Below are positions 5,501-60,236 of a stretch of DNA of 64,000 nucleotides, in pieces; within the stretch, counting starts at the first letter, position 1; the number at the start of each line of letters is the position of its first letter. The stretch covers positions 19,906,991-19,970,990 of the forward strand of contig CP136061.1 in NCBI GenBank assembly GCA_032622095.1, given 5' to 3'. Below the pieces are notes generated by a model, which saw nothing but the letters and a program-made list of their open reading frames with translations, had not been told where the DNA came from and searched no databases. Origin of the DNA: Siphonodentalium dalli (Eukaryota > Mollusca > Scaphopoda > Gadilida > Siphonodentaliidae). The position numbers and the translations under genes were made by a program.

Positions 5501-5892
5501 CCCTTTACCCAACAAACCGGCCAAAACCGGCCAAATAAAGCTTCAACAGCCTAAAATATCTTCGGTCTGTCTCAATAGAACCATACAAATATGGATATCA
5601 TTGGAACCGGCTCCTTGACCACATTGTGATAGTTACAGTTATGCCCTGTGCCAATGCATTCTCTTATATATGCGAGTCGACCATAGGTCGCCTCGCATAT
5701 ATAAGAGAATGCATTGGCCTAAAAAAAATCTGTTTTTAACACTTTTTACCATTTTTTCTTACATTCTTTAACAATTTTATAATTTTTAATGTGTTAAGCC
5801 AATGCATTCTCTTATATATGCGAGGCGACCTATGGTCGACTCGCATATATAAGAGAATGCATTGGCACATGACCCTTCTGTTGGGTAAAGGG
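5501..5892 (+). mobile_element. Hairpin MITE A, TIR CCCTTTACCCAACA, TTAA-type
   Basis: Left end CCCTTTACCCAACA and right end TGTTGGGTAAAGGG are inverted; the right flank is TTAA (5893-5896) and the left flank has decayed to ATAT. Inside are two 69-bp hairpins (5650-5718 and 5798-5866) that are reverse complements of one another, separated by an AT-rich spacer. The long arm (5515-5643) contains two AAACCGGCCAA words. It is noncoding. Paralog R-A copy 2 reads straight across this site near 22065. TTAA plus CCCTTT ends suggest mobilisation by a piggyBac-like transposase; this is inference. Confidence 0.8.
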
Positions 5893-6392
5893 TTAAATCA
5901 TATAATCCTACTATTTCTTGAATAAGAAGGAACGTCTAATTACGAACAAAGCAGAAGATATATTAATTCAGGTTCACGTGAATCCGGTCACTGATGACGT
6001 TATTCGTCGAGTTTCGTTGAAATCGACATGCGTGGGGGTGATATTTTATGTATGGAAATGATGAAATGAAAATGATGAAATTGACAAGTTTCGCCATCAA
6101 GCGAAGTGCCCCCCCCCCCCCCAATCAGCGTTACTATCAATAATGGCTAATTTCAGTAAAATTCTCCATGTTTACCATCGACACTACAAATATGTCCCCG
6201 TATTTTAAATACTTTGGATCGTTTTGGATCGTTTATAATCTGCAATAATTTGTAATCAATGTACGGTTTCTTATGTTTTATTGGGGTTTTAAAACTGCTA
6301 TGTGGGGAAATCTCGGTTTGTTTAGATAATTATTGTTCTGATTCCGATTACGGAATCAGAATCAGAATAAGATTACCACGTGCTATGATTAA

Positions 6393-6753
6393 CCCTTTAC
6401 CCAACAGAAGGGCCCTGTGCCAATGCATTCTCTTATATATGCGAGTCGACCATAGGTCGCCTCGCATATATAAGAGAATGCATTGGCTTAACACATTAAA
6501 AATTATAAAATTGTTAAAGAATGTAAGAAAAAATGGTCAATGCATTTTCTTATTTATGCGAGGCGACCTATGGTCGACTCGCATATATAAGAGAATGCAT
6601 TGGCACAGGGCATAACTGTAACTATCACAATATGGTCAAGGAGCCGGTTCCAATGATATCCGTATTTGTATGGTTCTATTGAGACAGACCGAAGATATTT
6701 TAGGCTGTTGAAGCTTTATTTGGCCGGTTTTGGCCGGTTTGTTGGGTAAAGGG
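6393..6753 (-). mobile_element. Hairpin MITE B, same family as A, inverted
   Basis: Perfect TTAA duplications flank it (6389-6392 and 6754-6757). Ends are CCCTTTACCCAACA and TGTTGGGTAAAGGG. It is copy A turned around: the short arm is on the left and the long arm with the AAACCGGCCAA words is on the right. Hairpin 1 is 6419-6487 and hairpin 2 is 6536-6604 with a few substitutions (TGCATTTTCTTATTTATG). The spacer is shorter than in A. A and B therefore form a large inverted repeat about 500 bp apart. Noncoding. Confidence 0.85.
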
Positions 6754-7105
6754 TTAAGGTCTGGACGTTTATGGAACCATATTGTACGGAATTGTACGGA
6801 GTGTAACCAGTAATCAATACTCGGAATAAAATCACGAAATAACGCATCTGGGGAGAGTCGTTTCCATAAGTTTCATAACGTGTACTTTTGAAAAAAAGAG
6901 TATGTTTTACAGAAGTTCTTGGTATCTGAAAATAGTGAAATTTAAAATATTTTTCATGCCATAAAAGTGAAATAAATGTGGTTCTTAATTATTGTGTTAT
7001 AGTAATCGCTTGTACCAAATTTCACAAAGAAATTGCTGACAGATTTTGAGAAAATCCATTTTGTTATACCAGATCATTTTGGTAAAACGTGCCTCTGACC
7101 CTTAA

Positions 7106-7585
7106 AGGTACTCAATCCGAACAGAGGGTCCCCATCTCAACAGATTCCAACAACAACAACAATCCGATCAGAGGGTCCTATATTACTATTTCTTTGGCTT
7201 TGGGGGTAAAAAATATTTGATTCGAGTCGAGGAACCCACAAAACAAAGCTCAGAGTTATTAGATATTGATTTTTGAAATTTGTTATTTACTCGAGATGAG
7301 TACTAATAATTGCCTTCGACTGCCGTAATCTGCTCGGGATGTGTACTCCAAAATCTATTAAAACAGACAAGGATGGATAACTCTAAAATCAAGTGGTAAT
7401 AATAACGCAATTTTGACTGAGTTCTGGGCCAGAAAGTATTCCCGATAATGAAAAATAATAGATTTCTAAAATCGATATCTAACAAATCTGAGCTTTGATG
7501 GGTGACTTCCTCGACTCGAATCAAATATTTTTGACCCCCGAAGCCATTGAAATAGTAATTGAGAGTTTTATCGGATTGAGTACCT
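7106..7585. mobile_element. TTAA MITE, TIR AGGTACTCAATCCGA, copy 1
   Basis: TTAA at 7102-7105 and 7586-7589 flanks inverted ends AGGTACTCAATCCGA and TCGGATTGAGTACCT. Both arms carry the same inner module, GGGGGTAAAAAATATTTGA, TCGAGTCGAGGAA and CAAAGCTCAGAG on the left and its inverse on the right, so the element can fold over roughly 150-bp arms. The minus-strand ORF 7303-7608 is just the arm read through and is not a gene. Three relatives are at 18546, 33716 and 43373. Confidence 0.85.
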
Positions 7586-7869
7586 TTAATGTAAAGAATA
7601 ATACACACTTTATTTTACATTTTGTTTGCTGACTACATCATTATATGTAAACGAAGATTGACATCGACTTCGTCGGGAGATATTTGGCTCCTGTGTGTCC
7701 GGTGACTCAGTCGGTAAGGTCCACAGCACACTGGATCACCATATGTTGTCCAGCTGTAGCAACTCTATCTGGTATTATTCACACAAAGCTCGAATTATGG
7801 GCTCAAGCTGAGGGGTGCCAATCTGTTTGTATTTGTGGCGATATTAACAATCTGTGAAGTCTTTCATGT

Positions 7870-8070
7870 GCGTAAAAATAACGTCACGATTAAACCTTTC
7901 TATATTAAATGGATCATCCCACTCAGTTATAAAATAATACATTGGAACAGTCTATTATTCGTCTGGAGGGATTTCATGAAATATAAACACGTCAGATAAT
8001 ACAAGTACAGAAGGAGTCATATTTATGGAGGTAAATGTTCAGATAATAAGTTCAACAACAGACCTGGTTT
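7870..8070. repeat. Dispersed repeat, paired with 25470-25655
   Basis: Shared blocks with 25470-25655 include AGATAATACAAGT, GGAGTCATATTTAT, GGAAATGTTC-like words and TTCAACAAC in the same order and orientation. No ORF. Just upstream, 7690-7720 has a tRNA A-box-like stretch (TGACTCAGTCGGTAAGG) without a convincing B box, so a decayed SINE is possible. Identity is otherwise unknown. Confidence 0.5.
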
Positions 8071-8945: not shown

Positions 8946-10833
8946 GACGATATGATTGACACAATCTATCAGATTTTCTATTTTGTCAATAACCACGACC
9001 TCACGACTAAATCGCGAACAGTCACCTGATACAATTATCGTGTTTCTTACACATAACGTTAACGGTCAAAATTTTGAAGATATTATTCCTTTTGTCAGTG
9101 GTGTGTTTGAAAACGACTATCAACAACAGTGAAATCCCGTTGTTTATATAATCATATACAGCGGCGATCATTGATTGGATAATCCTATACAGCGTCGATC
9201 CATTGATAGGATAATCCTATGCAGTGACGATGTCTCTCAGATCGACGACCACATATATATTCGCGTTGAGCCACGCGGTATAAACTACCTGGACTATATT
9301 TAAACACAGTTGGTGAATGCGAGCCCTGGAATATAAAGTTTCTCCACCAGACGATCCTCGCAAGAGCAATACTATAGCAACACATCTTACATATCATATG
9401 TATATACGCGTAACTCGACCTCCCCATTTATAATACGTATAATGTATAATCAGCATAATCGATGTCACTTTATTCAACCTTCATTGTGTGTGAATCGGTT
9501 GATAAATAAGTCACCGCTCCAAAGATAGCTCCATGTCCTTGTATTGTATTGTTTGTAGAGATAACCAAGTGAGTTATAACCAATACACATTGTTGTCGGG
9601 TTTGGTTTCCCCACCAGGAAATCGAAAACTTATCCTGTGGCTTCACTAATCTTAAGTGCTTCGATCCGTGTGAGTATATTTGGATCAACAAAGCCTTTCA
9701 TTGAAACATATGACGTTGGCACGACTTCGGACCTAATTGGTTTCGCATCATGACAGCGGTCCGCAGTGATTGTTTTTATCATTCATCAATGTATTGAATT
9801 CTCTGGACGCAACATTTCTTTGTCCACTATTTTTTACCCAAATGGTATTTTATTATCTGAACTGAATCAACTCCGTTGTTGTTGTTATTGTTGTTGTTGT
9901 TGCTGCTGCTGTTGGTGTTGTCCTCCGATAATCTATAAATATGCAATGACCGGGAGTGCATCAGTGGGTGGTCATAGTAAGCTGAATATATACATGTATA
10001 TATGATGTTACATTCAATTACGTATTATTCATTTATGTATTGTTACTAACATTATACATGTGTGTCTATATATATTTATACCATGACTCCATATTGTACT
10101 GTGTACAAACATGCTATATAATATATTTGTGCTGTACACCCTACTGTGTGTGAACAGGAGTCCGACCGTGGGTAACACGTTTCTACTGTGGGTAACACGT
10201 TTGAATGGCATTTCAATGATTAAAGTTTATACCCATAGTAGAACTACATCCGAGTTGACATTTCGTTAACCTTCCGTGATCTCGATCAAAATGACTCTAT
10301 TTTTAAAAGGTAGCGCCTCGCGATGAAAACAATTTGATATTTTCGATTCAATTGAATAGTATACTCACTAATGCGATAAAAACGAACAGTTTATTCCGTG
10401 GAAATCACATCCAGATCAACAAATTGAACATATATTTAAGAAATAGACGTAACAAACTCGAACAACAAACGGTGGATTTCAAAATGACTTTCGTGGTTTC
10501 CTGTTGACTGTCCGGCAGAGAAAAAAAAATTCCCGCAATGGGTTATATTTATATTCATTAAATTCATATTCCCAAATATATTCATGTTGTTTATTTATGG
10601 TTTATTGTGAATTGACTATACACTGATGCCATATTCGTACAATTGAGTGTTGACCTAATTCAATGTATCAATACGCCTGATCAGCTGTGATAGTGTACGT
10701 CGATGTACGGCCAAGTGTGGGGAACACAACGGGTATGATTGTGAATGGTGCGACAGAATCGTCTTAATTTAAGTGGGTTTATTTCGATTTCATAGCATTT
10801 TTTTACTCTTGTACCGGTCATGGTATAAACAAA
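8946..10833. other. No gene; short tandem and trinucleotide runs
   Basis: At 9158-9235 there is a degenerate ~30-bp tandem (GATTGGATAATCCTATACAG-like, two to three copies). At 9878-9925 a TTG/CTG-type trinucleotide run occurs. Between 10141 and 10205 GGGTAACACGTTT is repeated twice. ORFs at 9185-9427, 9470-9691 and 9766-10005 show no recognisable domain. Confidence 0.5.
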
Positions 10834-10979
10834 ATACACACGTAGTGTTTCTGAATACCAAATTTACACAACTCGTGTGATTGATGATTGACCACACTCG
10901 CTAAAGCTCGTGTGGTAAATCATCAATCCCACTCGTGGTGTAAATTTGGTATTCAGAAACACTACGTGCACATGTATTC
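10834..10979. mobile_element. Fold-back hairpin element with ~65-bp arms
   Basis: The left arm reads ACACGTAGTGTTTCTGAATA, then CCAAATTTACAC, then GATTGATGATT; the right arm repeats these in inverted order. The loop near 10902-10910 is CTCGCTAAAGCTCG. There is no ORF and no clear target duplication. It is similar in design to the hairpin at 3256 but unrelated in sequence. Confidence 0.7.
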
Positions 10980-12475
10980 TATATATATTATGCCACTCAC
11001 TTGATTATGTATGCTCTCTTATCACAAATGTGAAGAGAGAGATATAATGAATGATGATTAAACTAAAGCAACAAAATATTCATTGCATGTTTGTTGAATG
11101 AGAGCTCTGTTGCAACAACTTGCAAGCGTTTGCGGTAGAAAAGCATATAACTGCCTTTTGACGTCGCAATGGAAATAAAGTACAATTTGTTTCCAATTTA
11201 TCGGCGACAATGCTCATCATAGAACATACATAATTTGACATTTTGTCAATCAGTCAACGAGAAAGCGACATAAAATCTATTAGATTAGCTAACCATGATT
11301 GGCAACTGCGACGGAATACCAAACGCATGTGAGTGGCATTGCCCAACGGGAACGTAACCTTAAAATGGTATTAATATGGTATTATGCTGGAAATATTCAG
11401 ACGGTTTGATTATATTATCAACGCCTTAACGGCCAGACGCACGTATTGGCAACATGTCCTGATATTTCAAAATGGTTATTCTCAAAATCTGTTTAGAATT
11501 TCTTTTTGAAACTTAGTGCAAACCATTATTGTGACACAATATTTAAGAACCATTAACCGGTTGGAAATTACAATCCCATTTACTATTCTTTCATGGTTCA
11601 AAAACTATTTTTCTTGATTCAAGAAATTAAATAATTATATTCATTTAGAAAGACAGCCAGCCATAAATGATTTTCTATAATTTAGAATTTTCATGTCATG
11701 CCTGTTGAGCAATGAAATATTAGGCTGATATGAGTTGTATATCATTGGTCCATATCCAAATCCTAGCTGACCACTACATGTATATCTAAATACTGTGGAA
11801 TATTTACAGTTGATTGCTTCCTGCTTGAGTGGACCAAACTGTATACCAGCATTTGTTTTCATTGGGCTGAAATATTGGTGGCGCTTTATTTTCATTTGTA
11901 ATATATGGATGTATGCTGTTATATCATGCAATAAACAATTTAATGCAACTTTATGACGCAAACGATGTTCCCTCTCAGAGATCCTAGACAATAAGCTATT
12001 TGGTGAATGGATTGTTATGTGAAATTATTAATTATTCTAGCAGTCCTTGGTACCTAAAAGGCCGGACACATGAAAGAGAATGGTCAAACTCTCAAATGTA
12101 TTAATATCCATTGTGTTGGTCATATCTTAATAGTCTAATCGATTTAACCAATTTCGGGGTCGAACCCGGAAGAAATTGTTACTGAAGCGATATTGCTGTC
12201 ATTCGACGCGGGGAACACTGTATGGGAATTTTTATAATTCAAATGGCATCCAGCATGGTTTTGGATATCGCATGTTGTCTTAAATATGAGCATAGCATGA
12301 ACATCTGTAATGGCAAATGCGCATTTACGTTCGAGTGTATTCAACATGAGAAGTGGAATATATTGCCCGTAGATGGCTGCCAAAATGGCTCTCAAAATGG
12401 CCGAAATCTAATGAAATTTTACAATGGCAGAAAAAGTCTGAATATTCCACCGAGTTAATAAGAACGAATTATATA
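10980..12475. other. No assigned feature
   Basis: The 116-codon minus-strand ORF at 11641-11991 and the opposed ORFs at 12144-12395 and 12222-12458 carry no recognisable domain. The stretch GGGGTCGAACCC at 12157 resembles a tRNA B box on the minus strand, but no A box or cloverleaf accompanies it. I see no support for a gene. Confidence 0.4.
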
Positions 12476-12934
12476 TGTGACCCGCCATATCAAATCCAGT
12501 CGTAAGTCGGGATTTTTTTTACCCTGTGCCAATGCATTCTCTTATATATGCGAGTCGACCATAGGTCGCCTCGCATATATAAGAGAATGCATTGGCCTAA
12601 CAATTTTTTACATTTTTAATATTCTGTTCTTGTATTCTTTAACAAATTTTTAATTTCACCCATACAGAGCCCCAGACAAATATGAGCAGAGGACACTCTT
12701 CTATATGCTTCTATATATGTGTGGGGCTCCCTGCAGGGTAATGGATGTTTTTTATTTTATGTCCTAAAAATTGTAAAAAACATTTATTTAAAAAAAATGA
12801 TAAAAAATTGTTAGGCCAATGCATTCTCTTATATATGCGAGGCGACCTATGGTCGACTCGCATATATAAGAGAATGCATTGGCACAGGGTAAAAAATTCC
12901 CGACTTACGACTGGATTTGATATGGCGGGTCACA
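12476..12934 (+). mobile_element. Nested hairpin MITE C, TIR TGTGACCCGCCATATC
   Basis: Outer ends TGTGACCCGCCATATC and its inverse extend about 37 bp (through CCAGTCGTAAGTCGGGA) and are flanked by TATA (12472-12475, 12935-12938), so a TA-type target is likely. Inside are the same 69-bp hairpins as in MITEs A and B (12528-12596, 12815-12883). Inside those is a third palindromic block bounded by GAGCCCC (12667) and GGGGCTC (to 12729). The ORF at 12745-12939 is hairpin read-through. Element G at 56514 is the same element in the other orientation. Confidence 0.85.
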
Positions 12935-13198: not shown

Positions 13199-13506
13199 AT
13201 GTTACAACATACCGTTATAGCGCTCGATAATCCTCCCCAAGCAATACTTCGGTGTTGAATGGGTCACCGCGAATCAATCTCCCAAAAATCGCCACAGTTT
13301 TCAGGGTTTTGCTTATCGCACACTCTTTATGTGATGTATATAAATACACGCTCGGCTCACACAAGTGTGTTTTGCGGATAATATCGTATTCATACTATCA
13401 GTATACTGTACTATTAATATATTTTTGAGGAATTGTTCATAAGTTGGTAACTTTTAATCTTTTATTTCTAAATTATAACATACAACCAAGGCCAGCTGTG
13501 TCTTTA

Positions 13507-13916
13507 ATCTGGTAATGTCGCGCGATGTCATGGTCCGTGCCTTTAATATGGTAATGTCGCGCGATGTCATGGTCTATGCCTTTAATCTGGTAATGTCGCG
13601 CGATGTCATGGTCTGTACCTTTAATCTGGTAATGTCGCGCGATGTCATGGTCTGTGCCTTTAATCTGGTAATGTCGCGCGATGTCATGGTCTGTGCCTTT
13701 AATCTGGTAATGTCGCGCGATGTCATGGTCTGTGCCATTAATCTGGTAATGTCGCGCGATGTCATGGTCTGTGCCTTTAATCTGGTAATGTCGCGCGATG
13801 TCATGGTCTGTGCCTTTAATCTGGCAATGTCGCGCGATGTCATGGTATGTGCCTTTAATCTGGTAATGTCGCGCGATGTCATGGTCTGTGTCTTTAATCT
13901 GGTAATGTCGCGCGAT
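13507..13916. repeat. 39-bp minisatellite, left block (~10.5 units)
   Basis: Units of 39 bp contain GGTAATGTCGCGCGATGTCA followed by TGGTCTGTGCCTTTAATCT. The period is divisible by three and the unit lacks stops in at least three frames, giving ORFs on both strands (13515-13931 plus, 13574-13882 minus). The first units carry markers (TTTAATATGG, GTCTATGCC) that recur together at 17455-17510 in the right block, showing an internal segment duplication. The block ends at GTCGCGCGAT where a LINE is inserted. Confidence 0.95.
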
Positions 13917-16900
13917 AGTTTTTTAGTTTAAACATATTTATTTGTCTGATTTCAATAACACATATAGGAAATGATACATACATTTTTATATAGACAATGG
14001 GATTGGAGGACAAGTGCTTACTCACTTATGAGTACCTCCTCTCCCATTTGCTATTACACTGAAAAATAAATCAAGAATAATGGTATTGCAACATGACTAC
14101 CAAAGGCAAGTTGAACTTATATACATGTACATATCACCGGTCGTTTCCCGCCCCCGAGTCAGTCTTTTGTTTATACATGAATTACTTGGAAGTCGTCTTT
14201 GATTGAGTCATTTGCTGGCTTGTATATGTATTTGCTAGACTTGGTCAATAGCATCTAGTTTTGTCTCACGGATGAATGATTGTACAGCTAAGAAAAAAAT
14301 TTCATTGTCGCAATCGGGTAGAGCAGGGTCTCCAAATAGCAGAATTTTTAGTGAGTAAATATTATAAGGAAGTAATTTATTCAATAGGCGAATTCTTGGG
14401 ATCGAATGTAGGCAACAATCAAAGAAATAATGGAAGGCATTTTCTTCTCCATTTCCACATGAGCAGTCTTTGCAACTTGCAATGTAATTTTGAACCTTAT
14501 CTGATAGGAGGTTGCTACATTCACATCGTAATCTGCAGTGATATATATTTTCAGTCCGCTTTCCTACATTGTAATATTTGGAGGGTTTGGGTATTTCTGG
14601 TTTAAATGTGTTTAGATAACATTGTAGGTTAAGATCTCGAGTCTTAGTTTTGGTTGCATTCCAATTTTTTACACACGTGGGCATGAATGTTGACTCCATT
14701 CTTTTTGTATTAGGTTTAAAATGTATAAAGTTTGATGCAAATCTAGTATCGTGGTCGCTTATATCGGAGAATTTTGGGGGAAGTAAGTCAACTAAATATT
14801 TGGGCACTTTGTGATTGACAATGTTATGAAAAAGTGAAAGTCTTTTTGTTTGTCTTCTTTCTGAAAGTGTTTCCCAACCCATTTCGGTTAGTATTCGTTT
14901 GCGAGGTACAGATCTCGTACAGCCACTTATAATGCGTGCGGCTTCATATTCTACATCATCTAGTTGTTTGAGTAACTTGTCTGGTGCTCCAGCCCAGACA
15001 CTACTTGCATATTCCATGATTGGGCGTACGTGTGACAAATAGAGGATTTCAAGAGTTTTGCGGTTTAAAAGATACTTGAGTCTTCGTAGTTGGGATAATT
15101 TAGCATAAGCTCTGGCACATACATTTTCTATATAACTGTCCCATGTTAAGTCGTCATCTATTTCCATGCCTAGATGCCTGTGCTGTTTAGAGTAATCAAG
15201 TCTCAATCCATCAAAGGTTATGAGCGGTCTCTCAAGGTTTTGAGAACTTGTGAAAAATAGTAATTTTGTCTTAGAATTATTAAATTTAACTATCCATGTG
15301 TCCGCCCACTTTCTTATTTTCTCCATGTCGTTATTTACACTATGTTCAAGGCTTTGTATGTCCCTATCGGATTTTATGAGGCATGTGTCATCGGCGTATA
15401 GTCTGGTTTGTGATTCTATGTTGTCAGCAATATCGTTTATATAGATTAAAAATAGCAGCGGGCCGACTACGGACCCCTGGGGGACCCCTGCTGTTACTGG
15501 CGAATATTTAGAAAAGCTAGAATTTATTTGCACCCTTTGTTGCCGTCCGTCAAGATAATTTGTGAACCATTTATGCAAGTTGTCTGTTATTCCATAGTGT
15601 TTTAATTTGAGTAACAGACCTTGGTGCCATACTTTGTCAAACGCTTTCGAGATGTCACAGAAAACAGCACACGTGCTTTGTTCATTGTCTACAGCGTGGT
15701 GTATTCTATGAAAAATTTCAACAAGTTGGAGTTCGGTACTGTGGCCTGGTATAAAACCGGATTGGTATTTATATAGTAAGTTGTTTGTATTTAAATGATT
15801 AAAGACTTTGTTGAATACCACTTTTTCTAATATTTTACCAATACAGCTTATTAGTGAGATGGGGCGATAGTTATTTGGATCACTGCGGTCACCATTTTTA
15901 AATATTGGTATTATGTTTGCTCTTTTCCATGCCACAGGGAAACAACAGCTCTTAAAAGATTTATTAAAAATATAATATAAGGGTTTACTGATGGAGCTGC
16001 ATGTTTCCCTGAGCAATTTATTGTTTATCCCATCAGGACCGTTTGCCTTCTTAACAGGAAGGCATTTTAGAATGTCAAATATTTCTTTCTCATTTGTTTT
16101 AATTTCTTTTAAAAACTTATTGGTTCTATCTGCAAAGGTCGGGGGCTCCATTTTATTGGTTTCTAGTGTGCCATGTTTAGTGAATATCTCATTGAGGAGT
16201 TCTGCCTTTTGAATCTCATCTTCAATATCCGTATTACCTGATTTCAGTATAGGTATTGTATTGTCGGTCGAAAAATTGTTGAGAAGTTGTTTTACAGTGT
16301 GCCAGAATTGTTTTGGTTTAGTATTCACACTTAAGTTTTCGTCTAGATCGCTCATGTATCTTTCCTTTGCTGCTTTTTTTAAATTGTTAACTTTGTTTCG
16401 AACACACTTGTATTTGTTCCAATCAGACTCCATATTTCTACGAACTGCCAGTTTTTTCAGTCGGTCGCGTTTTCGGATATGTTTTCTGATGATACCGTCA
16501 AACCAGGGTTTATCACGATTTCGGATTGTTATCTCATGGTATGGGATATGTTTTTTGGAGACCTCTAAGAAGGTTTCAGTGAATTTGTCAACCATTTTAT
16601 CTATATGCGTCGAGTCGGCTTCGGTATGTAACATTTGTTTCCAGTCGATATTGAAGAGTTCCATGTTTAATCTCTCATAGTTGCCCTTTGAATAATTCCA
16701 AACAGAACGTTTGTAGGATTTTGGTTTATATATTGGGACACACACTTCAACCGACGTTGCAAGGTGGTCTGATACTCCGAGATCATAAGTAGAGGGGTTC
16801 ATTGATTTAATGGTGTCACTTATTATGATCGGGTCTAATAAAGTTTCCGAGTTTCCTGCTATTCTAGTTGGTCCGCTTATGACATTTTTTAGAGTAAATT

Positions 16901-17170
16901 TTGTCATGATTGACTGAAGAGGACCTGATCTTTTCAGCAAATCGCAATTTAAATCGCCTACTATCACCAGCGAAGAATTTATGGACAAGGCACGTTCGAT
17001 CGCTTCATCTAGTTTTTTCCAATATGTCTCAATACATTCGTTATCTGAACGGTAAGTTACGCAAAGAATAAATTTGTGCTTGGTTCCCACCTCAAACCAT
17101 AAAATCTCATCTTCAAAACATAAAAAGTCTAGCAATTTAAAGGTGATATGAGTCGAGAAATATACGGCGA
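13917..17170 (-). mobile_element. 5'-truncated LINE inserted in the 39-bp minisatellite
   Basis: The element reads right to left. Its 3' end (AAACTAAAAAACT, at 13917) abuts the left array, and its 5' break is at 17170, inside the endonuclease domain. The array overlaps itself by exactly 10 bp at the two junctions (GTCGCGCGAT at 13907-13916 and 17171-17180), consistent with a target-site duplication. In a tandem array this can only be read as phase overlap modulo 39. The 3' UTR (about 13917-14234) is shared with the small copy at 22486-22869. The remaining ~979 codons are uninterrupted, which suggests a recent insertion. RT and tail look like the CR1/Jockey group; finer class is uncertain. Confidence 0.9.
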
Positions 17171-17903
17171 GTCGCGCGATGTCATGGTCTGTGCCTTTAA
17201 TCTGGTAATGTCGCGCGATGTCATGGTCTGTGCCATTAATCTGGTAATGTCGCGCGATGTCATGGTCTGTGCCTTTAATCTGGTAATTTCGCGCGATGTC
17301 ATTGTATGTGCCTTTAATCTGGTAATGTCGCGCGATGTCATGGTCTGTGCCTTTAATCTGGTAATGTCGCGCGATGTCATGGTCTGTGTCTTTAATCTGG
17401 TAATGTCGCGCGATGTCATGGTCTGTGTCTTTAATCTGGTAATGTCGCGCGACGTCATGGTCTGTGCCTTTAATATGGTAATGTCGCGCGATGTCATGGT
17501 CTATGCCTTTAATCTGGTAATGTCGCGCGATGTCATGGTCTGTGCCTTTAATCTGGTAATGTCGCGCGATGTCATGGCCTGTGCCTTTAATCTGGTAATG
17601 TCGCGCGATGTCATGGTCTGTGCCTTTAATCTGGTAATGTCGCGCGATGTCATGGTCTGTTCCTTTAATCTGGTAATGTCGCGCGATGTCATGGTCTGTG
17701 CCTTTAATCTGGTAATGTCGCGCGATGTCATGGTCTGTGCCTTTAATCTGGTAATGTCGCGCGATGTCATGGTCTGTGCCTTTAATCTGGTAATGTCGCG
17801 CGATGTCATGGTCTGTGCCTTTACTCTGGTAATGTCGCGCGATGTCATGGTCTGTGCGAAAGTAGAGCTTTTGTTTGGACACAATCTCATCCTCAGGTGT
17901 CAA
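14235..17903 (-). CDS. 1,222-codon ORF: minisatellite fused to LINE ORF2
   Basis: Codons 1 to ~244 are translated minisatellite (13-residue unit TDHDIARHYQIKG, about 17 copies). From ~245 the frame runs into LINE ORF2: partial APE endonuclease (LAVYFS, GDLNCDL near 315, SDH near 379), a linker, then reverse transcriptase (GPDGINNKLL near 620, DISKAFDKV, GVPQGSVVGPLLF, YADDT near 836-840). It ends in a Cys/His-rich tail (CKDCSCGNGEENAFHYFFDC) and stop. The N-terminal catalytic Asn and Glu of the endonuclease are lost by truncation, so autonomous target cutting is unlikely. The ATG at 17903 lies in sequence right of the array. Translation is not shown; the fusion frame follows from the period being a multiple of three. 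Confidence 0.8.
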   Translation of the reverse strand: MTPEDEIVSKQKLYFRTDHDIARHYQSKGTDHDIARHYQIKGTDHDIARHYQIKGTDHDIARHYQIKGTDHDIARHYQIKGTDHDIARHYQIKGTDHDIARHYQIKGTGHDIARHYQIKGTDHDIARHYQIKGIDHDIARHYHIKGTDHDVARHYQIKDTDHDIARHYQIKDTDHDIARHYQIKGTDHDIARHYQIKGTYNDIARNYQIKGTDHDIARHYQINGTDHDIARHYQIKGTDHDIARLAVYFSTHITFKLLDFLCFEDEILWFEVGTKHKFILCVTYRSDNECIETYWKKLDEAIERALSINSSLVIVGDLNCDLLKRSGPLQSIMTKFTLKNVISGPTRIAGNSETLLDPIIISDTIKSMNPSTYDLGVSDHLATSVEVCVPIYKPKSYKRSVWNYSKGNYERLNMELFNIDWKQMLHTEADSTHIDKMVDKFTETFLEVSKKHIPYHEITIRNRDKPWFDGIIRKHIRKRDRLKKLAVRRNMESDWNKYKCVRNKVNNLKKAAKERYMSDLDENLSVNTKPKQFWHTVKQLLNNFSTDNTIPILKSGNTDIEDEIQKAELLNEIFTKHGTLETNKMEPPTFADRTNKFLKEIKTNEKEIFDILKCLPVKKANGPDGINNKLLRETCSSISKPLYYIFNKSFKSCCFPVAWKRANIIPIFKNGDRSDPNNYRPISLISCIGKILEKVVFNKVFNHLNTNNLLYKYQSGFIPGHSTELQLVEIFHRIHHAVDNEQSTCAVFCDISKAFDKVWHQGLLLKLKHYGITDNLHKWFTNYLDGRQQRVQINSSFSKYSPVTAGVPQGSVVGPLLFLIYINDIADNIESQTRLYADDTCLIKSDRDIQSLEHSVNNDMEKIRKWADTWIVKFNNSKTKLLFFTSSQNLERPLITFDGLRLDYSKQHRHLGMEIDDDLTWDSYIENVCARAYAKLSQLRRLKYLLNRKTLEILYLSHVRPIMEYASSVWAGAPDKLLKQLDDVEYEAARIISGCTRSVPRKRILTEMGWETLSERRQTKRLSLFHNIVNHKVPKYLVDLLPPKFSDISDHDTRFASNFIHFKPNTKRMESTFMPTCVKNWNATKTKTRDLNLQCYLNTFKPEIPKPSKYYNVGKRTENIYHCRLRCECSNLLSDKVQNYIASCKDCSCGNGEENAFHYFFDCCLHSIPRIRLLNKLLPYNIYSLKILLFGDPALPDCDNEIFFLAVQSFIRETKLDAIDQV
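17171..17858. repeat. 39-bp minisatellite, right block (~17.6 units)
   Basis: Same unit as 13507-13916; together they form one array of about 28 units split by the LINE. Variant units (GCCATTA, GTGTC, GACGTC) mark register. Open frames occur on plus (17148-17972) and minus (17129-17497, 17501-17890). Confidence 0.95.
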
Positions 17904-18545
17904 TCGGCTAACCGATTTTCACATCTGTTACAAGAACGAATGAAAAACGTGCTGTCTCTGGTTATCTGCTAAATTAACCTAAATATCACCGCTGAACTGC
18001 AATGAGCGTGACACGTGACACATGCGCAGTAGAACCATTGAACCAAACTCCATGCAGCGCCCTCTACGTTATCACTGCGATGTAATACTGCCACAAGGAT
18101 GGTACTTTGCGGACCGATACATCTATTTTTACATATCGTCGGAACTATATTTAGTCACCTATTATCTTATTTTGACCAAAAGTTTGCAATAATTGTAATT
18201 CTTTTGGTATTGATAAGAACAATATAGACAGACAATAGCCAGACATAGACAATTTTATTCCTAAAACATAAAACTAAGAACACGCACGAAATCCTTACCA
18301 AATGTCCTTATGGCAGTGATATATCAGCGGAGCAATGGGAGATAACTCTGCCTGGAGTTTGCCATTGAACATATCAAATGCTGCTGAACCGGTTGTTGCA
18401 TGCGCATCTGATATGTGGGGTCATTCATATAATGGAATTGGAATTTATAGGCAAATAGTCCCACGCACATCCGACATTTATTTTGGGAACCTTATCACAT
18501 ACGATCGGTTATAAACATGATTATATTAATATCGTGACCATTTAA
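17859..18545. other. No assigned feature
   Basis: Unique-looking AT-rich flank of the minisatellite up to the next MITE. No ORF above 65 codons, RNA gene or paralog noticed. Confidence 0.4.
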
Positions 18546-19049: not shown

Positions 19050-21062
19050 AATCCACGAGAGGTTACCGACCCGGATAATCCACGAGAGGTTACCGACCCT
19101 GATAATCCACGAGAGGTTACCGACCCTGATAATCCACGAGAGGTTACCGACCCTGATAATCCACGAGAGGTTACCGACCCTAATAATCCACGAGAGGTTA
19201 CCGACCCTGATAATCCACGAGAGGTTACCGACCCTAATAATCCACGAGAGGTTACCGACCCTGATAATCCACGAGAGGTTACCGACCCTAATAATCCACG
19301 AGAGGTTACCGACCCTGATAATCCACGAGAGGTTACCGACCCTGATAATCCACGAGAGGTTACCGACCCTAATAATCCACGAGAGGTTACCGACCCTGAT
19401 AATCCACGAGAGGTTACCGACCCTGATAATCCACGAGAGGTTACCGACCCTGATAATCCACGAGAGGTTACCGACCCTAATAATCCACGAGAGGTTACCG
19501 ACCCTGATAATCCACGAGAGGTTACCGACCGTAATAATCCACGAGAGGTTACCGACCCTGATAATCCACGAGAGGTTACCGACCCTAATAATCCACGAGA
19601 GGTTACCGACCCTGATAATCCACGAGAGGTTACCGACCCTGATAATCCACGAGAGGTTACCGACCCTAATAATCCACGAGAGGTTACCGACCCTGATAAT
19701 CCACGAGAGGTTACCGACCCTAATAATCCACGAGAGGTTACCGACCCTGATAATCCACGAGAGGTTACCGACCCTAATAATCCACGAGAGGTTACCGACC
19801 CTGATAATCCACGAGAGGTTACCGACCCTAATGATCCACGAGAGGTTACCGACCCTGATAATCCACGAGAGGTTACCGACCCTGATAATCCACGAGAGGT
19901 TACCGACCCTGATAATCCACGAGAGGTTACCGACCCTGATAATCCACGAGAGGTTACCGACCCTGATAATCCACGAGAGGTTACCGACCCTGATAATCCA
20001 CGAGAGGTTACCGACCCTGATAATCCACGAGAGGTTACCGACCCTGATAATCCACGAGAGGTTACCGACCCTGATAATCCACGAGAGGTTACCGACCCTG
20101 ATAATCCACGAGAGGTTACCGACCCTGATAATCCACGAGAGGTTACCGACCCTGATAATCCACGAGAGGTTACCGATCCTGATAATCCACGAGAGGTTAC
20201 CGACCCTGATAATCCACGAGAGGTTACCGACCCTGATAATCCACGAGAGGTTACCGACCCTGATAATCCACGAGAGGTTACCGACCCTGATAATCCACGA
20301 GAGGTTACCGACCCTAATAATCCACGAGAGGTAAACGACCATGATAATCCACGAGAGGTTACCGATCCTGATAATCCACGAGAGGTTACCGACCCTGATA
20401 ATCCACGAGAGGTTACCGACCCTGATAATCCACGAGAGGTTACCGACCCTGATAATCCACGAGAGGTTACCGACCCTGATAATCCACGAGAGGTTACCGA
20501 CCCTGATAATCCACGAGAGGTTACCGACCCTGATAATCCACGAGAGGTTACCGACCCTGATAATCCACGAGAGGTTACCGACCCTAATAATCCACGAGAG
20601 GTTACAGACCCTGATAATCCACGAGAGGTTACCGACCCTGATAATCCACGAGAGGTTATCGACCCTGATAATCCACAAGAGGTGACCGACCCTGATAATC
20701 CACGAGAGGTTACCGACCCTTATAATCCACGAGAGGTTACCGACCCTGATAATCCACGAGGGGTTACCGACCCTGATAATCCACGAGAGGTTACCGACCC
20801 TGATAATCCACGAGAGGTTACCGACCCTGATAATCCACGAGAGGTTACCGACCCTGATAATCCACGAGAGGTTACCGACCCTGATAATCCACGAGAGGTT
20901 ACCGACCCTGATATCCACGAGAGGTTACCGACCCTGATAATCCACGAGAGGTTACCGACCCTAATAATCCACGAGAGGTTACCGACCCTGATAATCCACG
21001 AGAGGTTAGCGACGCTGATAATCCACGAGGGGTTACCGACCCTGATAATCCACGAGGGGTTT
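19050..21062. repeat. 27-bp minisatellite, ~74 units
   Basis: The unit begins GATAATCCACGAGAGG and continues TTACCGACCCT. It is very homogeneous. From about 19075 to 19860 units with CTGATAAT and CTAATAAT interleave, often alternating; from about 19860 onward nearly all are CTGATAAT. One unit near 20911 lost a base. The period (9 codons) leaves long stop-free frames: minus 18921-20918 (WIIRVGNLS repeated), plus 19831-20334, 20341-20685 and 20682-21110. These ORFs track the repeat and have no unique coding sequence beyond short flanks, so I do not call a gene. Confidence 0.97.
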
Positions 21063-39400: not shown

Positions 39401-40166
39401 CACCAAGGACATCGAATTCGTCCACTTAAAATTTTGCTCAATTCTACTTGGTATGAAGTCCAGTACACCGAATTACATGGTGTACGGAGAAACAGGACGA
39501 CACCCACTTGGAATTGAGATCAAATGCCGTGCACTGGCATTTTGGTCAAGAACCGTTTCTAAATATGGTTCAAATCTAGTGAAGAAACTATATAAATTGT
39601 CGCGAGTGTTATCTGAGTCTCCCGGTACTTATTTGAAATGGTTTGAATTTATACAGGTGATTTTCGAAGAGGTAAATGCCAAAAGTTCATGCTCAGCTAA
39701 CTCACCCTTGTCTAAGGGGACCATCAGACAATTTAAAATGGACATGACAAGTCAATTTGAATTAGAATGGCGCCAAAATATTCTTTCTTCGTCAAAGGGT
39801 ATCCTTTACAACGAAATAAAGTCCGACCTTAAACTGAGTGGCTATTTGCTAAAATTGCCTACATATCTGGAAGAATACATGACAAAGATTAGAACAACAA
39901 ACCATCGTTTGGCCATTGAGAGTGGTAGATGGAAAGTCGTGCCACGAGAACAAAGACTCTGCTCCGCATGTGGGGAGGGTCTCGGTGATGAATATCATTT
40001 TATTATCGTATGCAAAAGATTCCAGGTTATCAGAGAGAAATTCTTACCATCGTATTATTGGGAGCTTCCCAACCTTGATAAATTTATTGGTCTTCTGTCC
40101 ATTGATAATCTAGAAATTATGAAGAGGGTATGTATATTTATTAAACAGGCACTGTGTGACACATGA
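36478..40166 (+). pseudogene. LINE ORF2 (endonuclease, RT, zinc finger), 3 frameshifts
   Basis: One ancestral frame of about 1,230 codons is broken at about 36782, 38180 and 38388. Part 1 (36478-36807) has an N-terminal region and the start of an APE endonuclease (ILALNVCGL, ILCLSE). Part 2 (36768-38213) continues it (GDFNAR; SDIH as the usual SDxH) and a basic linker. A short segment in the other frame (38170-38390: KANKSPGIDLIPNEYLK) begins the reverse transcriptase. Part 3 (38385-40166) has DSYRGITLLSC, DFRKAFDSVW, GLFQGELMSPL, YADDT at about 38995-39009, and a finger CSACGEGLGDEYHF near 39960. Not autonomous as it stands. No separate ORF1 was found. Subfamily not assigned. Confidence 0.88.
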
Positions 40167-45837: not shown

Positions 45838-45950
45838 TACCTTTACCCAACAGAACGGCCCTGTGCCAATGCATTCTCTTATATATGCGAGTCGACCTAT
45901 GGTCGACTCGCATATATAAGAGAATGCATTGGCACAGGGCATAACTGTAA
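45838..45950. mobile_element. Solo perfect hairpin (D) from MITE A/B family
   Basis: Bases 45858-45940 are two perfect 40-bp arms around a 3-base loop (TAT). The centre GAGTCGACCTATGGTCGACTC-type sequence combines the left half of hairpin 1 and the right half of hairpin 2 found in A, B, C and G. The left flank CTTTACCCAACAGAAC and right flank CATAACTGTAA match MITE B, so this is that MITE with the spacer deleted and the long arm truncated. It lies in the left arm of the 8.27-kb element. Confidence 0.85.
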
Positions 45951-53536: not shown

Positions 53537-54124
53537 GTATTGATGAAAACCCCCTAATTCCCTTTTTATGACCGTGGATATGTATATATCTGTGCAGGAG
53601 ATGTCTCGTTAATCAAATATACTAGAGATCCGGATGGAGACATGCATTCATGGGATATGGATGCTGATGACATGAAAATAGGTGTTTTTGGGCCAATTTC
53701 AAGTAAATAAGTACTGGTACATCAATTATGAGTGAAGCAAGCCCTTGGCGATACCCAATTTTTGTGACACAAGCTCCAAAACATGTGCCATTAGTCACAC
53801 ATTTCATCGCTTGTGTCGCTTTCGGTGCGCGCCGAAACATGCGCTAATATCTAACCTTTTTTCCCTTTCGGCGCGCGCGCCGACAGCGCCGTAACGGCGC
53901 ACACTTTGTCGCTTTCGGCTCTTTCGAGTGTCCGAATTTAGTGTACAGTACCCCTTTAAAAGTAAGACGAAAACTGTTCTGTAACCATTGAAATTCCTAA
54001 TACGAGGTCATTTCTTGAGTTCCGCAGCTCAATAGTAAGAGAGAACGACTCGTAATCGCTGTCAACGCAGGATATATATATGAGCTCTCGATACGATCAA
54101 CATTAGTCTATAGAAAAATATAAG

Positions 54125-54321
54125 TAACCCTTTCATAGCTGGTGCAGCATTAAATACCCTGTGCCAGTGCAATCACTCCCTCTGCTTCTTCTTATATATG
54201 CGAGTCGACCATATAGGTCGCCTCGCAAATATACGAGAATGCACTGGCTTACACGACCTATAAGAGAATGCATTGGCACAGGGTTTTCGCAAAGATTCAG
54301 GAAGCTCCCGTCATGAAAGGG
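54125..54321. mobile_element. Degenerate hairpin MITE E, TIR CCCTTTCAT, TTAA-like
   Basis: Left AACCCTTTCAT and right ATGAAAGGGTTAAC are inverted. Inside, CCCTGTGCCAGTGCA ... GCATTGGCACAGGG is a decayed form of the 69-bp hairpin (hairpin core ATGCGAGTCGACC at about 54198). The right arm TTTTCGCAAAGATTCAGGAA is also found at 58587-58607. The outer ends differ from those of MITEs A/B and C/G. Confidence 0.65.
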
Positions 54322-54344
54322 TTAACAAATATTAGCCTTCGGTA

Positions 54345-54870: not shown

Positions 54871-55288
54871 TCAACTTTTCGATTACGAATTCTGTTTAGC
54901 TTTGATCCGACGAAAACGTGATATCATTGCAAATAATACTTCCCGAGAGCCTCGTGATTGGGAAACGAGTGTTCCCCTCTGGGTATTAGTAACACAGTAG
55001 TAGCGTTTTGAAATTGCGCGTCCGCTGCCATTTCACGTTGTCATATCGGTGCATCCTTTTTGCGAATTGAACACTGCAACAGCAATACGAATCAAAACAC
55101 ATGATCAAATTGCTAATCGATTTTAATCTCGTGTCTGCCCTAAGGTCTCTGCTCATACGCGTGAGGATTCTATTCAGGACCAGGTCACGTTCACCCTTGA
55201 ATTCAGGTCTGTGAGTTAGCTTCTTCGGCACCAAGGCTCGCGATAGCACAGGAATCACTGAACTAAATGGTTTCCCATAAGCGATTTT
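54871..55288. other. No assigned feature
   Basis: Flank between the microsatellite and MITE F. The ORF at 54986-55303 has no recognisable domain and runs into the MITE. Confidence 0.4.
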
Positions 55289-55675
55289 TTTACCCTGTGC
55301 CAATGCATTCTCTTATATATGCGAGTCGACAATAGGTCGCCTCGCATATATAAGAGAATGCATTGGCCTAACAATTTTTTATAATTTTTATAATTGTTTC
55401 TTGTATTCTTTAACAATTTTATAATTTCACCCATACAGAGCCCCAGACAAACATGAGCAGACGACACTCTTATATATGCTTCTATATATGTGTGGGGCTC
55501 CCTGCAGGGTAATGGATGTTTTTTTTATTTTATGTCCTAACAATTGTAAGAAACATTTATTTAAAAAAATGATAAAAAATTGTTAGGCCAATGCATTCTC
55601 TTATATATGCGAGGCGACCTATGGTCGACTCGCATATATAAGAGAATGCATTGGCACAGGGTAAAAACAGTGTTA
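55289..55675 (+). mobile_element. Hairpin MITE F without the outer TGTGACCC ends
   Basis: Ends are TTTTTTACCCTGTGCC and GGCACAGGGTAAAAA. Hairpins are 55309-55377 and 55587-55655; the inner GAGCCCC...GGGGCTC block is at about 55438-55500. Interior order is as in C, but the TGTGACCC outer arms are absent, so the module from ACCCTGTG inward can exist alone. Confidence 0.8.
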
Positions 55676-56513: not shown

Positions 56514-56954
56514 TGTGACCCGCCATATCAAATCCAGTCGTAAGTCGGGATTTTTGTACCCTCTGCCAATGCATTCTCTTATATATGCGAGTCGACCATA
56601 GGTCGCCTCGCATATATAAGAGAATGCATTGGCCTAACAATTTTTTTATCATTTTTTTTAAATAAATGTTTCTTACAATTTTTAGGACATAAAATAAAAA
56701 AAACATCCATTACCCTGCAGGGAGCCCCACACATATATAGAAGCATATAGAAGAGTGTCGTCTGCTCATGATTGTCTGGGGCTCTGTATGGGTGAAATTA
56801 TAAAATTGTTAAAAAATTATAAAAAATTGTTAGGCCAATGCATTCTCTTATATATGCGAGGCGACCTATGGTCGACTCGCATATATAAGAGAATGCATTG
56901 GCACAGGGTAAAAAAAATCCCGACTTGCGACTGGATTTGATATGGCGGGTCACA
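56514..56954 (-). mobile_element. Nested hairpin MITE G (C in reverse orientation)
   Basis: Outer ends TGTGACCCGCCATATC and inverse, TA on both sides. Hairpins 56565-56633 and 56834-56902; the inner GAGCCCC...GGGGCTC block at 56722-56784 is reversed relative to C and F. Since hairpin 2 is the reverse complement of hairpin 1, this equals the whole element lying in the other orientation. ORFs here are hairpin read-through. Confidence 0.85.
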
Positions 56955-57129: not shown

Positions 57130-58172
57130 TGAATAAAAACGATAAGTTGGTATCCAAACACTATCTACACTGGAAGAATGTAGCAACGAACTAAGATTAT
57201 TGAAAATTCCAATCACATTGACTGTATATAGTGGAATGTTTGTGAATGACAGAATGCGTTCTATGCCAGTGCTAGTGTGTAATGATGTGTATGGGTTCCG
57301 AGAGAGAACGTTTACTTCTACAAATAAGATACGTTATGCCATTTGTAATTCTGATTTGTTCATATTTATTTCGTCATTGGAATAACCTACTTCATATATA
57401 GTTTATAATAGACTTTTTATTGTAATGGATAACATATATGCTAAATTGTGATATTATTATATGGGCGATATATGCCCTAAACAAATAAACAGATATATTT
57501 GTATATGTACCATTTCAGAGAACACAACGTTTGAACTACGTACAACTTTAAATAGTCACTAGTTTATTCGGGACGAAATGTTGCGCATAAACATACCAGT
57601 GATTCATAAACATACCAGTGATTCATAAACATACCAGTGATTCATAAACATACCAGTGATTCATAAACATACCAGTGATTCATAAACATACCAGTGATTC
57701 ATAAACATACCAGTAATTCATAAACATACCAGTGATTCATAAACATACCAGTGATTCATAAACATACCAGTGATTCATAAACATACCAGTGATTCATAAA
57801 CATACCAGTGATTCATAAACATACCAGTGATTCATAAACATACCAGTGATTCATAAACATACCAGTGATTCATAAACATACCAGTGATTCATAAACATAC
57901 CAGTGATTCATAAACATACCAGTGATTCATAAACATACCAGTGATTCATAAATATACCAGTGATTCATAAACATACCAGTGATTCATAAACATACCAGTG
58001 ATTCATAAACATACCAGTGATTCATAAATATACCAGTGATTCATAAACATACCAGTGATGCTGTTTTCTGCCTATTCTGATATCAAATTGGTGAACATAA
58101 TTTATTTTGGCATGATTCTTTGTTATTCCGTTCTGAACAGCTCATCAGAGTGTTTCAAAACACTTTAGTGAA
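57130..58172 (+). repeat. Possible diverged R-B copy 3 with internal minisatellite
   Basis: 57140-57240 resembles the start of R-B (GATAAGTT, TGGAAGAATGTAGCA, CATTGACTGTAT) and 58135-58172 resembles its end (CATCAGAGTGTTTCAAAACA). A 19-bp minisatellite occupies the middle. Similarity is weak and was judged by eye. Confidence 0.35.
57586..58059. repeat. 19-bp minisatellite, ~25 units
   Basis: Unit CATAAACATACCAGTGATT, nearly uniform with rare variants (AATATA, GTAATT). Period 19 is not a multiple of three and gives no ORF. Confidence 0.97.
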
Positions 58173-59779
58173 CGTTCTTTCCAGTCACGATTTTTACGGA
58201 CACACGACTGCGATTACGTCGCAATTGGATGAATCCAACGATACGCCACGCTTTCAAATCTAAAATCAAACAGTGCTTGATATTATATTTTGACTTGCGA
58301 TATTGACGTGAGCATGGGCAGTCAAACTAACGTTTACTTTCTACGACGGAAATCCTTCCACTTACGATTGACTCGTGCATGGTCGTCTGAACGTTCACTT
58401 AAAGACATATCAAGATTCAAGATTTCAAGATTTTTGAAGGCAATATCAAGATAATGATGTCTCTCACATACCATACAATACAATACAAAATAGAAACATA
58501 GATAAATAGCAGCTCTCGATACCACATGCATTAAGATTTATTATATACATAATATACACACGGGGGTTAAGGGCAAGCCAGTATTTTCGCAAAATTTCAG
58601 GAAACTCGAGTCATGGAATTGTTAATCGTTGTTGAATTCGGCTTCTAGCAATCAAGCCAAGCGATGGCGGAGTGCTTATAGGAATAAAATGGCAGAAAAG
58701 TTGAGTCGAGTCGCGGAGAAGGGATACATTATATTGTTTGACTTTTGTAATACATCTATGGACTGTTACACTCTTAATTGAATTAACGATGATTCACACT
58801 TATGAACGTAACTTGACTCAAATTCAATACAACTTGGCAAATTTTGTAAGACTTGAAAATAACAGGATTATACCATTACTAGATGTCTATATACAAAGTC
58901 TGGTCGATGATAGGTATGACCAAGAAGAAGAAAATTGGACTACGTTGGTTTCTATTCTATTTTAAAGGGGAATATATCCTCTATAACGTATCCCAAATCC
59001 GCTAGTATCCGCTTTAAGCAAATTGTTTTAGAGAGATTTAAAAAATGACAATTCCGGCCTTGGGAAGTATAGGTTTTTCTGCAATATACCTCATCGGCGA
59101 CACCAGAAGGGCTTGAATTAACGGCTATCACTGGAGGTTAAAGGTGTATAAACAGTACGCCATTTTCAATAAATTCCCGGTGATAACAACGATCTATTAT
59201 CGATAATATATAAAAAAAACTAAGTAATTTGAGTCGAAGATGTATTCTGTAAACGTTCAGGTTAATAGGTTATCTTAAAATCAAAGTTAATAATTTGATA
59301 TAAATTTAATTTATGGCTGGAGCCATAAATTAAATTACGAATTTTCGTGTACAAGACGTAATCAAAAATAGTGGATGGGGCAACGCGTGGCACACAGGAT
59401 CGTGTAAAAAATTATGTTGATACGGGGCGTAAACTCAAGCCACTCACTGACTAGTGACTATCCAAATGACTTAAATTAGTATGTGGGACTAGTATGCATA
59501 TAATATAACATTTATTTGAAACATTTGCTTGAAAACAGTTACTGTCCAAAAATTACCCGACAACGACAATTGGTAGTTTTGCATTCCGGCTAATCTGCCA
59601 CCCGTAACATTACTTCGTACTCAACATAATTTCTAATAATGGAAATCTGGTTACCGTATTCTACGACTCAGAGACTATAGAAACCAACAACAACATTTGA
59701 GTACAGTATCCCTTTAACGCCGTGCACGATGTGTATATTGCTAGCTCTTACATATCAAGCAATATTCGCGTATCAAAGG
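58173..59779. other. Mostly unassigned; hairpin and possible TTAA ends
   Basis: 58559-58625 holds TTTTCGCAAAATTTCAGGAA, a relic of the right arm of MITE E. ORF 58738-58965 (75 codons) has no recognisable domain. 59303-59336 is a hairpin with perfect 16-bp arms (AATTTAATTTATGGCT, 2-base loop). TTTTAAAGGGG at 58961 and CCCTTTAAC at 59709 could be ends of a ~750-bp TTAA element centred on that hairpin, but similarity beyond 10 bp is absent. Confidence 0.35.
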
Positions 59780-60108
59780 AGGACCATGCAATTTCAATGA
59801 AGATGACGTTGATACAACCTTTTTCCTACGCATGAGGATGCAGATAACCCTATACGCATCGACGCGTTGGATCTCATTTTACGTCCAAATCGGCTTGGGT
59901 CAGAAATATACTCCCACACATTAAGGATAATATGACATGGGCATCATTTAATAGTGCTTCTTTCAATTGAGGCAACGCTGTATGGCAGTGCGCAAAATCC
60001 CCACCCACGCAGGTTGTTTTAATCGGATCTCGATCATCTCCCCTTACTTGCAAATCGGCTCGAGTGATAGGTACACCTCCCACGTCAATGATTTTCTCAC
60101 TGGTAATA

Positions 60109-60236
60109 TGTGACCCGCCATATCAAATCCAGTCGTAAGTCGGGATTTTTTTTACCCTGTGCCAATGCATTCTCTTATATATGCGAGTCAACCACAGGTA
60201 GCCTCGCATATATAAGAGAATGCATTGGCCTAACAA
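60109..60236 (+). mobile_element. Hairpin MITE H, right half deleted
   Basis: TGTGACCCGCCATATC outer end, ACCCTGTGCC, then one 69-bp hairpin (60161-60229) with two centre substitutions (GAGTCAACCACAGG). It stops after CCTAACAA, where tandem repeat sequence (CGTGGGCAGC) resumes. Same family as C and G. Confidence 0.8.

Follow-up and report, generated by a model that had tools for sequence, protein, structure and literature searches.

The window examined here is a stretch of 64,000 nucleotides from the scaphopod mollusc Siphonodentalium dalli (GenBank assembly GCA_032622095.1, contig CP136061.1, forward strand, positions 19,906,991 to 19,970,990), which forms part of contig C1 in the genome that we analysed (2.227 Gb, 9 contigs). 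It contains a series of short elements, labelled A to H in a first-pass annotation, that are built around a near-perfect hairpin of 69 bp. Our principal result is that these elements belong to a real, large and orderly set of composite miniature inverted-repeat transposable elements (MITEs) built around one hairpin, which is found in four end-frames: three with TTAA (TTAA-1, TTAA-2 and TTAA-3) and one, the TA frame, that duplicates 2 bp of its target (TA, TT or AA). The recurrence of the hairpin in A to H was borne out, with 13 hairpins at the places noted, although the hairpin in E is rearranged. The elements are as follows, S1 to S3 being spacers and X an inner block marked by GAGCCCC.

5498-5649, plus strand: element A, TTAA-1 long arm (CCCTTTACCCAACAAACCGG...CAGTTATGCCCTGT)
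5650-5718, plus strand: element A, hairpin 1, from arm matches and fold
5719-5797, plus strand: element A, AT-rich spacer S1
5798-5866, minus strand: element A, hairpin 2, from arm matches
5867-5896, minus strand: element A, short arm with TTAA at its end
6389-6757, minus strand: element B, TTAA-1, with short arm, hairpins at 6419-6487 and 6536-6604, shortened spacer and long arm
12476-12934, plus strand: element C, TA frame, with hairpins at 12528-12596 and 12815-12883, S2, block X (GAGCCCC) at 12657-12744 and S3
45840-45950, plus strand: element D, in which a single, fully palindromic hairpin at 45865-45933 stands between the short arm and 17 bp of the long arm of TTAA-1
54124-54325, minus strand: element E, TTAA-3 ends with rearranged hairpins
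55285-55667, plus strand: element F, a bare core, T7-ACCCTGT-hairpin-S2-X-S3-hairpin-ACAGGGT-A5
56514-56954, minus strand: element G, TA frame, with hairpins at 56565-56633 and 56834-56902 and block X at 56707-56794, reversed
58584-58625, minus strand: a decayed TTAA-3-like end without hairpin, absent from the first-pass list
60109-60229, plus strand: element H, a TA arm and one hairpin at 60161-60229, truncated

The hairpin arm GCCAATGCATTCTCTTATA has 26 matches in the window at up to three mismatches, equal to the 13 hairpins, compared to 0.03 expected from shuffled sequence, which rules out a chance origin. The arms of A and B are unequal, each element having a long one of 153 bp and, at its opposite end, a short one of 30 bp. 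Their earlier grouping with D as a TTAA type holds for the TTAA-1 ends, but A and B are a single asymmetric family in opposite orientations (approximately 5498-5896 and 6389-6757), and a reading of them as symmetric nested MITEs was rejected. At the left end of A, ATAT stands in place of the expected TTAA, while C and G have TA duplicated on both sides. Element E had been credited with outer ends of its own beside TTAA, and these indeed belong to the third TTAA family, sampled copies of which mostly carry an older hairpin loop. Likewise F, described as lacking outer ends, is frameless and sits as an insertion in another repeat. H, listed as a TA type with a single hairpin, is a TA-type element that breaks off just after the first hairpin.

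Across the genome, GCCAATGCATTCTCTTATA matches 261,673 forward and 261,560 reverse places at up to two mismatches, compared to 5 and 3 for a reversed-pattern control; since a whole hairpin gives one match per strand, there are some 260,000 hairpins in all. The centre of the new loop type (three free bases) is matched exactly at 122,008 places, and the outer arms CCCTGTGCCAATGCATTC with A, C or T at -17 number 75,070 + 74,713. Twenty arbitrarily placed 3-kb stretches of contigs C2 to C9 held three hairpins, at two loci with TTAA-1 and TTAA-3 frames, or 1 per 20 kb compared to an average of 1 per 8.5 kb. Among 198 hairpins extracted from the window and from sampled loci, the polarity CCCTGT-hairpin-CTAA/TTAA (CTGT outside, CTAA or TTAA inside) is exact in 145, and a T/C mismatch at positions 28 and 42 is kept in 174 of the 187 that are 69 bases long. 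A common asymmetric defect combined with a common polarity argues for a single origin of the hairpin across all frames. TTAA-3 copies mostly have the older loop, CTCCCATAGGGAG, which is separated from the new loop by changes to both bases at stem pairs 30/40 (19 copies) and 31/39 (22 copies). Outside the TTAA-3 type stem changes are almost all one-sided, and correction of one arm by the other was rejected because pair-restoring double changes are hardly seen there. Three other palindromes in the window, at 3256-3402, 10824-10983 and 60612-60752, have arms of 69-79 bases that are 82-93% complementary with 2-3 bases between, and none matches the hairpin arm.

Fold prediction, which the first-pass annotation had recommended, gave very stable structures for the four window hairpins to which it was applied: the solo copy D reached -59.4 kcal/mol and each of the other three -54.3 kcal/mol (z -13.7 to -14.3). 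Such stability would be expected if the hairpin were kept by selection as RNA, either as a source of small RNA or as a structured transcript, and its sharing reflected that function. Paired changes do preserve the stem in TTAA-3, and across 17 end-selected TTAA-1 elements the hairpin stems depart from consensus at 20 of 1693 sites where the long arm does so at 57 of 2137 (p = 0.001). This difference is weak evidence for constraint, however, because differences between subfamilies raise the figure for the long arm, and the one-sidedness of stem changes outside TTAA-3, together with the lack of any Rfam match in the window at gathering scores, makes an RNA function a highly improbable reason for the sharing. 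The TTAA-1 copies are young, at approximately 1-3% from consensus.

Classification of the outer flanks resolved the four frames and a bare form. In TTAA-1, the layout is long arm, hairpin, AT-rich spacer, hairpin and short arm; there are 52,988 + 53,062 ends (up to one mismatch), and of the 42 elements in which the two ends could be located, 37 are flanked by TTAA on either side. TTAA-2 (TTAACCCTTTSAGTGCCAGG; 21,931 + 21,810 ends) has one hairpin in 30 of 32 parsed elements. TTAA-3 (TTAACCCTTYCATGACTGGAG; 20,373 + 20,127 ends, partly in tandem arrays of the end unit alone) often has older hairpins with a 27-base linker between them, up to tandem arrays (L009). In the end searches for TTAA-2 and TTAA-3 the TTAA was already inside the search pattern. 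All three have TTAACCCTTT, CCCTGT and the hairpin polarity in common, and they are probably piggyBac-like. The TA frame (TGTGACCCGCCATATC...GGGA, a T-run and ACCCTGT; 14,209 + 14,279 ends at up to two mismatches) has two hairpins enclosing block X, and a 2-bp duplication was found in 18 of 21 TA-type elements (TA 11, TT 4, AA 3). Strict TA duplication, as expected of a Tc1/mariner MITE, is not seen, with TA making up only 11 of the 18. In the matching rows, read by eye, the duplications sit between A and T, which is reminiscent of the ISL2EU group of PHIS transposons, for which an AT duplication in A|AT|T is described (PMC4482050); yet AT is duplicated there, as opposed to TA, TT or AA here, and no transposase could be tied to the ends of the TA frame.

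Bare ends of the form T5-8ACCCTGT, without a frame, occur on both sides of F and of a second element, L041, and on one side each of L018 and L040. In a separate census of the first 100 outer arms listed, from which two large tandem arrays on C1 were dropped, the remaining 83 comprised 24 TA, 35 TTAA-1 (18 long, 17 short), 14 TTAA-2, 10 TTAA-3 and 0 bare arms, the match for TTAA-3 being loose and including two copies of one atypical flank. At approximately 735-926 kb of C1, hairpin elements recur at periods of ~14.56 kb and ~11.17 kb, in large tandem arrays carrying TTAA-1 and TTAA-2 elements.

It had been suggested that the hairpin is itself mobile and jumps into other MITEs, and frames without it are therefore of particular interest. 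We sampled 20 regions from each list of 100 end matches, all within the first tens of Mb of C1. Most loci were taken in listed order, and some were picked for odd end spacing, which should favour empty or odd copies; these include L063, L065, L066, L067, L068 and L070 for TA, L074 and L079 for TTAA-1, and L098 and L113 for TTAA-2, while L057 was picked for the odd look of L031. Mutual copies (L114/L115, L104/L105, L100/L116, L030/L034 and L068/L070) were kept in the counts. The hairpin or a recognisable part of it is present in 76 of these 80 loci: 20/20 for TTAA-1, 20/20 for TA (L057 having half hairpins only), 19/20 for TTAA-2 and 17/20 for TTAA-3. The four exceptions are L098, the sole sampled TTAA-2 copy of the 20 to lack a hairpin, apparently through a deletion, and L123, L125 and L131, which are arrays of the TTAA-3 end. 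The junction CCCTGT|CTAACAATTTTT, which would be expected in TA and TTAA-2 copies that never had the hairpin or were cleanly rid of it, gave 2 + 2 matches at one mismatch compared to 0 + 2 for its control, and a search by exact matching, the only kind applied, gave no genome match for TA arms joined to each other through 0-12 bases. With the hairpin in nearly all framed loci sampled and the hairpin-less junction that was searched at background, we conclude that it belongs to the frames and is multiplied with them; hairpins do not seem to move singly into frames that were already complete, and the suggestion of free jumping is not supported.

Some sampled loci are peculiar in other respects. 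L067, whose ends lie 4.3 kb apart, was considered as an autonomous TA element and proved to be two neighbouring short elements. L057 (C1:4495900-4497780) has a GC-rich, CGG-rich inverted-repeat insert of ~1.2 kb at the hairpin centre, between TA arms; L031 and L032 are also linked to this type of insert, and L032, ~53 kb away, begins alike. The hairpin-less tandem arrays at L123, L125, L131 and C1:6612362-6612547 have a 33- to 37-base unit that consists of the TTAA-3 end, and represent a satellite born from a transposon end.

Frames nevertheless exchange parts, as two clear chimeras show. Parsing with a module library yielded 119 two-ended elements (44 TTAA-1, 32 TTAA-2, 25 TA, 15 TTAA-3 and 3 mixed), 116 of which have the same family at both ends. 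Among the mixed elements, L058 consists of a TTAA-1 long arm, a hairpin pair, a TA arm and a TTAA-1 end, with TTAA-1 sequence on both outer sides; after the second hairpin comes the TA arm, followed by CATAAC, the start of the TTAA-1 long arm beyond its hairpin. This arrangement fits the insertion of a TA element at that place followed by a hairpin-to-hairpin deletion. L065 begins with a TTAA-3 end, an old hairpin and a linker and continues with a new-loop hairpin and a TA arm. The third, L003, is doubtful, being a partial match across a 151-bp gap. Two one-ended mixtures were also found: L046, in which block X of TA type comes after a TTAA-2 end with its hairpin, and L132, with a TTAA-3 end, a new-loop hairpin and an AT spacer. 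Hence the first-pass view that TTAA and TA elements have the hairpin in common and exchange modules was upheld, since L058 and L065 combine different frames across their hairpins. The GAGCCCC block is a second shared module: a separate repeat unit, which alternates with TTAA-3 ends in L127 and L128, is homologous to block X (score 57, compared to a maximum of 24 in 1000 shuffles). Solo hairpins occur within TTAA-1 arms, in element D of the window and in L079.

The same evidence bears on whether all frames are merely diverged versions of one ancestral element, with no exchange at all. For the three TTAA frames a common ancestor stays likely, given the sequences and polarity that they share, and the paired changes at two stem positions that separate old from new loops would fit such a descent; to this extent the possibility raised in the first-pass annotation stands. 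It leaves the TA frame unexplained, however, with its unrelated terminal repeats and 2-bp duplication, and it is further contradicted by the mixing of frames in L058 and L065 and by the occurrence of block X in a different repeat unit, so that as an account of the whole system we think it quite unlikely.

We propose instead that the hairpin has been passed on as a building block within a group of composite MITEs. Different elements carrying this block, CCCTGT-hairpin-CTAA with its AT-rich spacer, would recombine or switch template at or beside the palindrome, and the block would thereby acquire new outer frames and new inner blocks. Any combination that succeeded would then be multiplied whole by transposases that read the outer ends, these being piggyBac-like enzymes for the TTAA frames and another enzyme for the frame with 2-bp duplication. 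That composite MITEs arise by recombination or template switching and are subsequently multiplied by end-specific transposases is, in our estimation, about evenly balanced between right and wrong. What the data show is the very high copy number and common polarity of the hairpin, its occurrence in nearly all sampled loci with frames, the chimeras and solo forms, and the empty site of one frameless insert; the origin of the frame swaps by recombination or template switching, and the transposases involved, are inferred.

The bare element F is the one good case for a hairpin pair that is mobile by itself. It is a 383-bp insert at GCGA|CAGTG of a host repeat. When its two flanks are joined, 40 scored places out of 668 candidates align with them at 93-96% identity and with no net gap, from query position 44-53 to 164-166 across the junction at 85. 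In the 18 of these 40 places that were read, the site is CATAGGCGA|CAGTGTTAACG with nothing between, save for a one-base difference in three (L159, L168 and L169). The filled site reads CATAAGCGA, then T7ACCCTGT...ACAGGGTA5, then CAGTGTTAACG, and no target base has been lost or doubled, except for one A that is assignable to either side. Insertion of a hairpin pair together with its inner part thus does not require a frame. An empty site of its own, which the first-pass annotation had proposed to look for, was found for the pair in F, the one insertion for which such a site was demonstrated, and not for single hairpins in the frames searched. A loss of the arms of F subsequent to its insertion was rejected, since the host repeat continues undamaged to the edge of both T/A runs. 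The Spy group of PHIS transposons also leaves no target duplication, and inserts between AAA and TTT. F resembles Spy in having no clear target duplication (a single element, with one ambiguous A) and differs in its target, GCGA|CAGTG rather than AAA|TTT, and in that no transposase is linked to it. L041 lies close to what, judged by eye, resembles an exon of a rabenosyn-like protein, for which Pfam gave no match.

The core itself (the hairpin pair, the spacers, block X and the T5-8ACCCTGT ends) may be mobile and insert without target duplication, the TA frame having arisen by fusion of the core to new arms. Besides F and its empty site, this is favoured by L041, which has F-like ends on both sides, and by the distribution of TA-type outer arms in L001-L051 and the window (n=26), where 6 are bare (arm score ≤11), 20 are armed (≥64) and none lies between. 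There is one empty site only, though; the separate census contained no bare arm among its 24 of TA type, the ends of the core have no transposase tied to them, and insertion during repair, or a template switch out of a TA element, would yield the same product, the left junction of F sharing GA with the TA arm (by eye). We therefore treat a mobile core as a tentative alternative. If true, it would be a selfish hairpin borrowing the ends of other transposons; that a core ending in T-runs and A-runs repeatedly took on such ends, so that different transposases now multiply one hairpin, seems to us conceivable and rather doubtful.

Returning to assembly by recombination or template switching, several observations weigh against it. 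Clear chimeras are just two (L058 and L065) among the 119 parsed elements. A solo-type centre appears in none of the 100 new-loop centre matches listed, and hairpin-to-hairpin loss accordingly looks rare. Broken hairpins are common, with 85 of 425 arm readings stopping before position 66 and 65 of these before position 42, but this is weak evidence for breakage at the hairpin centre, because a single break can be counted from either side and the count also takes in locus edges and point changes. A frameless element with clean T-run and A-run ends, such as F and likewise L041, is not what general recombination predicts. Finally, the piggyBac transposase family gave 128 genome matches, many in open frames and some representing two pieces of one copy, which speaks for the proposal, but the hairpin is present in none of the 18 piggyBac loci looked at (some of them near-identical copies), nor was a matching pair of TTAA-flanked ends found in the 15 searched. 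L140 and L142 have the same TTAACCCTTTATCTGC sequence beside the transposase, which is probably a transposon end, and L144 and L147 have a TTAACTCTTT sequence; both agree with the TTAA frames over ~10 bases only. The link between piggyBac enzymes and the TTAA frames is therefore putative.

Several known systems provide partial parallels. As in piggyBac-type MITEs, the TTAA elements have a TTAA duplication (counted for TTAA-1), ends starting with CCCTTT, no coding capacity that we could see and piggyBac transposases in the same genome, but here three TTAA families share one hairpin module that is also found in a differently duplicating family, and the piggyBac loci searched yielded no autonomous element that shares their ends. 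MER6 is a composite MITE with mariner ends around a short interspersed nuclear element (SINE) V domain (PMC6887750); it is similar in that a conserved block of one kind of element is carried inside DNA-transposon ends, and different in that here the block is a near-perfect hairpin in four end-frames of one genome. Foldback and Galileo elements have long inverted repeats and varied combinations of modules, which in Galileo are attributed to template switching and ectopic recombination (PMC2955051, PMC4168063); their modules vary within one family, whereas here they do so across families with different duplications. The hairpin elements of sponge mitochondria are likewise short hairpins multiplied across a genome (PMC2800124), but ours are nuclear, far more numerous and inside transposon frames. 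Our literature search returned no paper with three signature strings, and no title or abstract among those searched describes the hairpin module. Composite MITEs are thus known, and what distinguishes this case is one small palindrome across four end-frames, in very many copies, in one genome. Together, the chimeras, solo forms and frameless copy with its empty site make the assembly of MITE families directly testable through breakpoints near the palindrome, and the system is a natural case of jumping genes built from exchangeable parts.

Other repeats of the window stand apart from the hairpin elements. A 39-base tandem repeat at 13496-13916, next to a minus-strand reading frame for a reverse transcriptase (14235-17918), recurs at 17171-17857, within the first part of that frame. 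A second non-long-terminal-repeat (non-LTR) retrotransposon occupies 36756-40166, with a clear reverse transcriptase frame that is interrupted between 38213 and 38367 and a weak endonuclease match under the Pfam cut-off. Between these, at 19050-21061, lies a 27-base tandem array of ~75 copies that is open in several reading frames.

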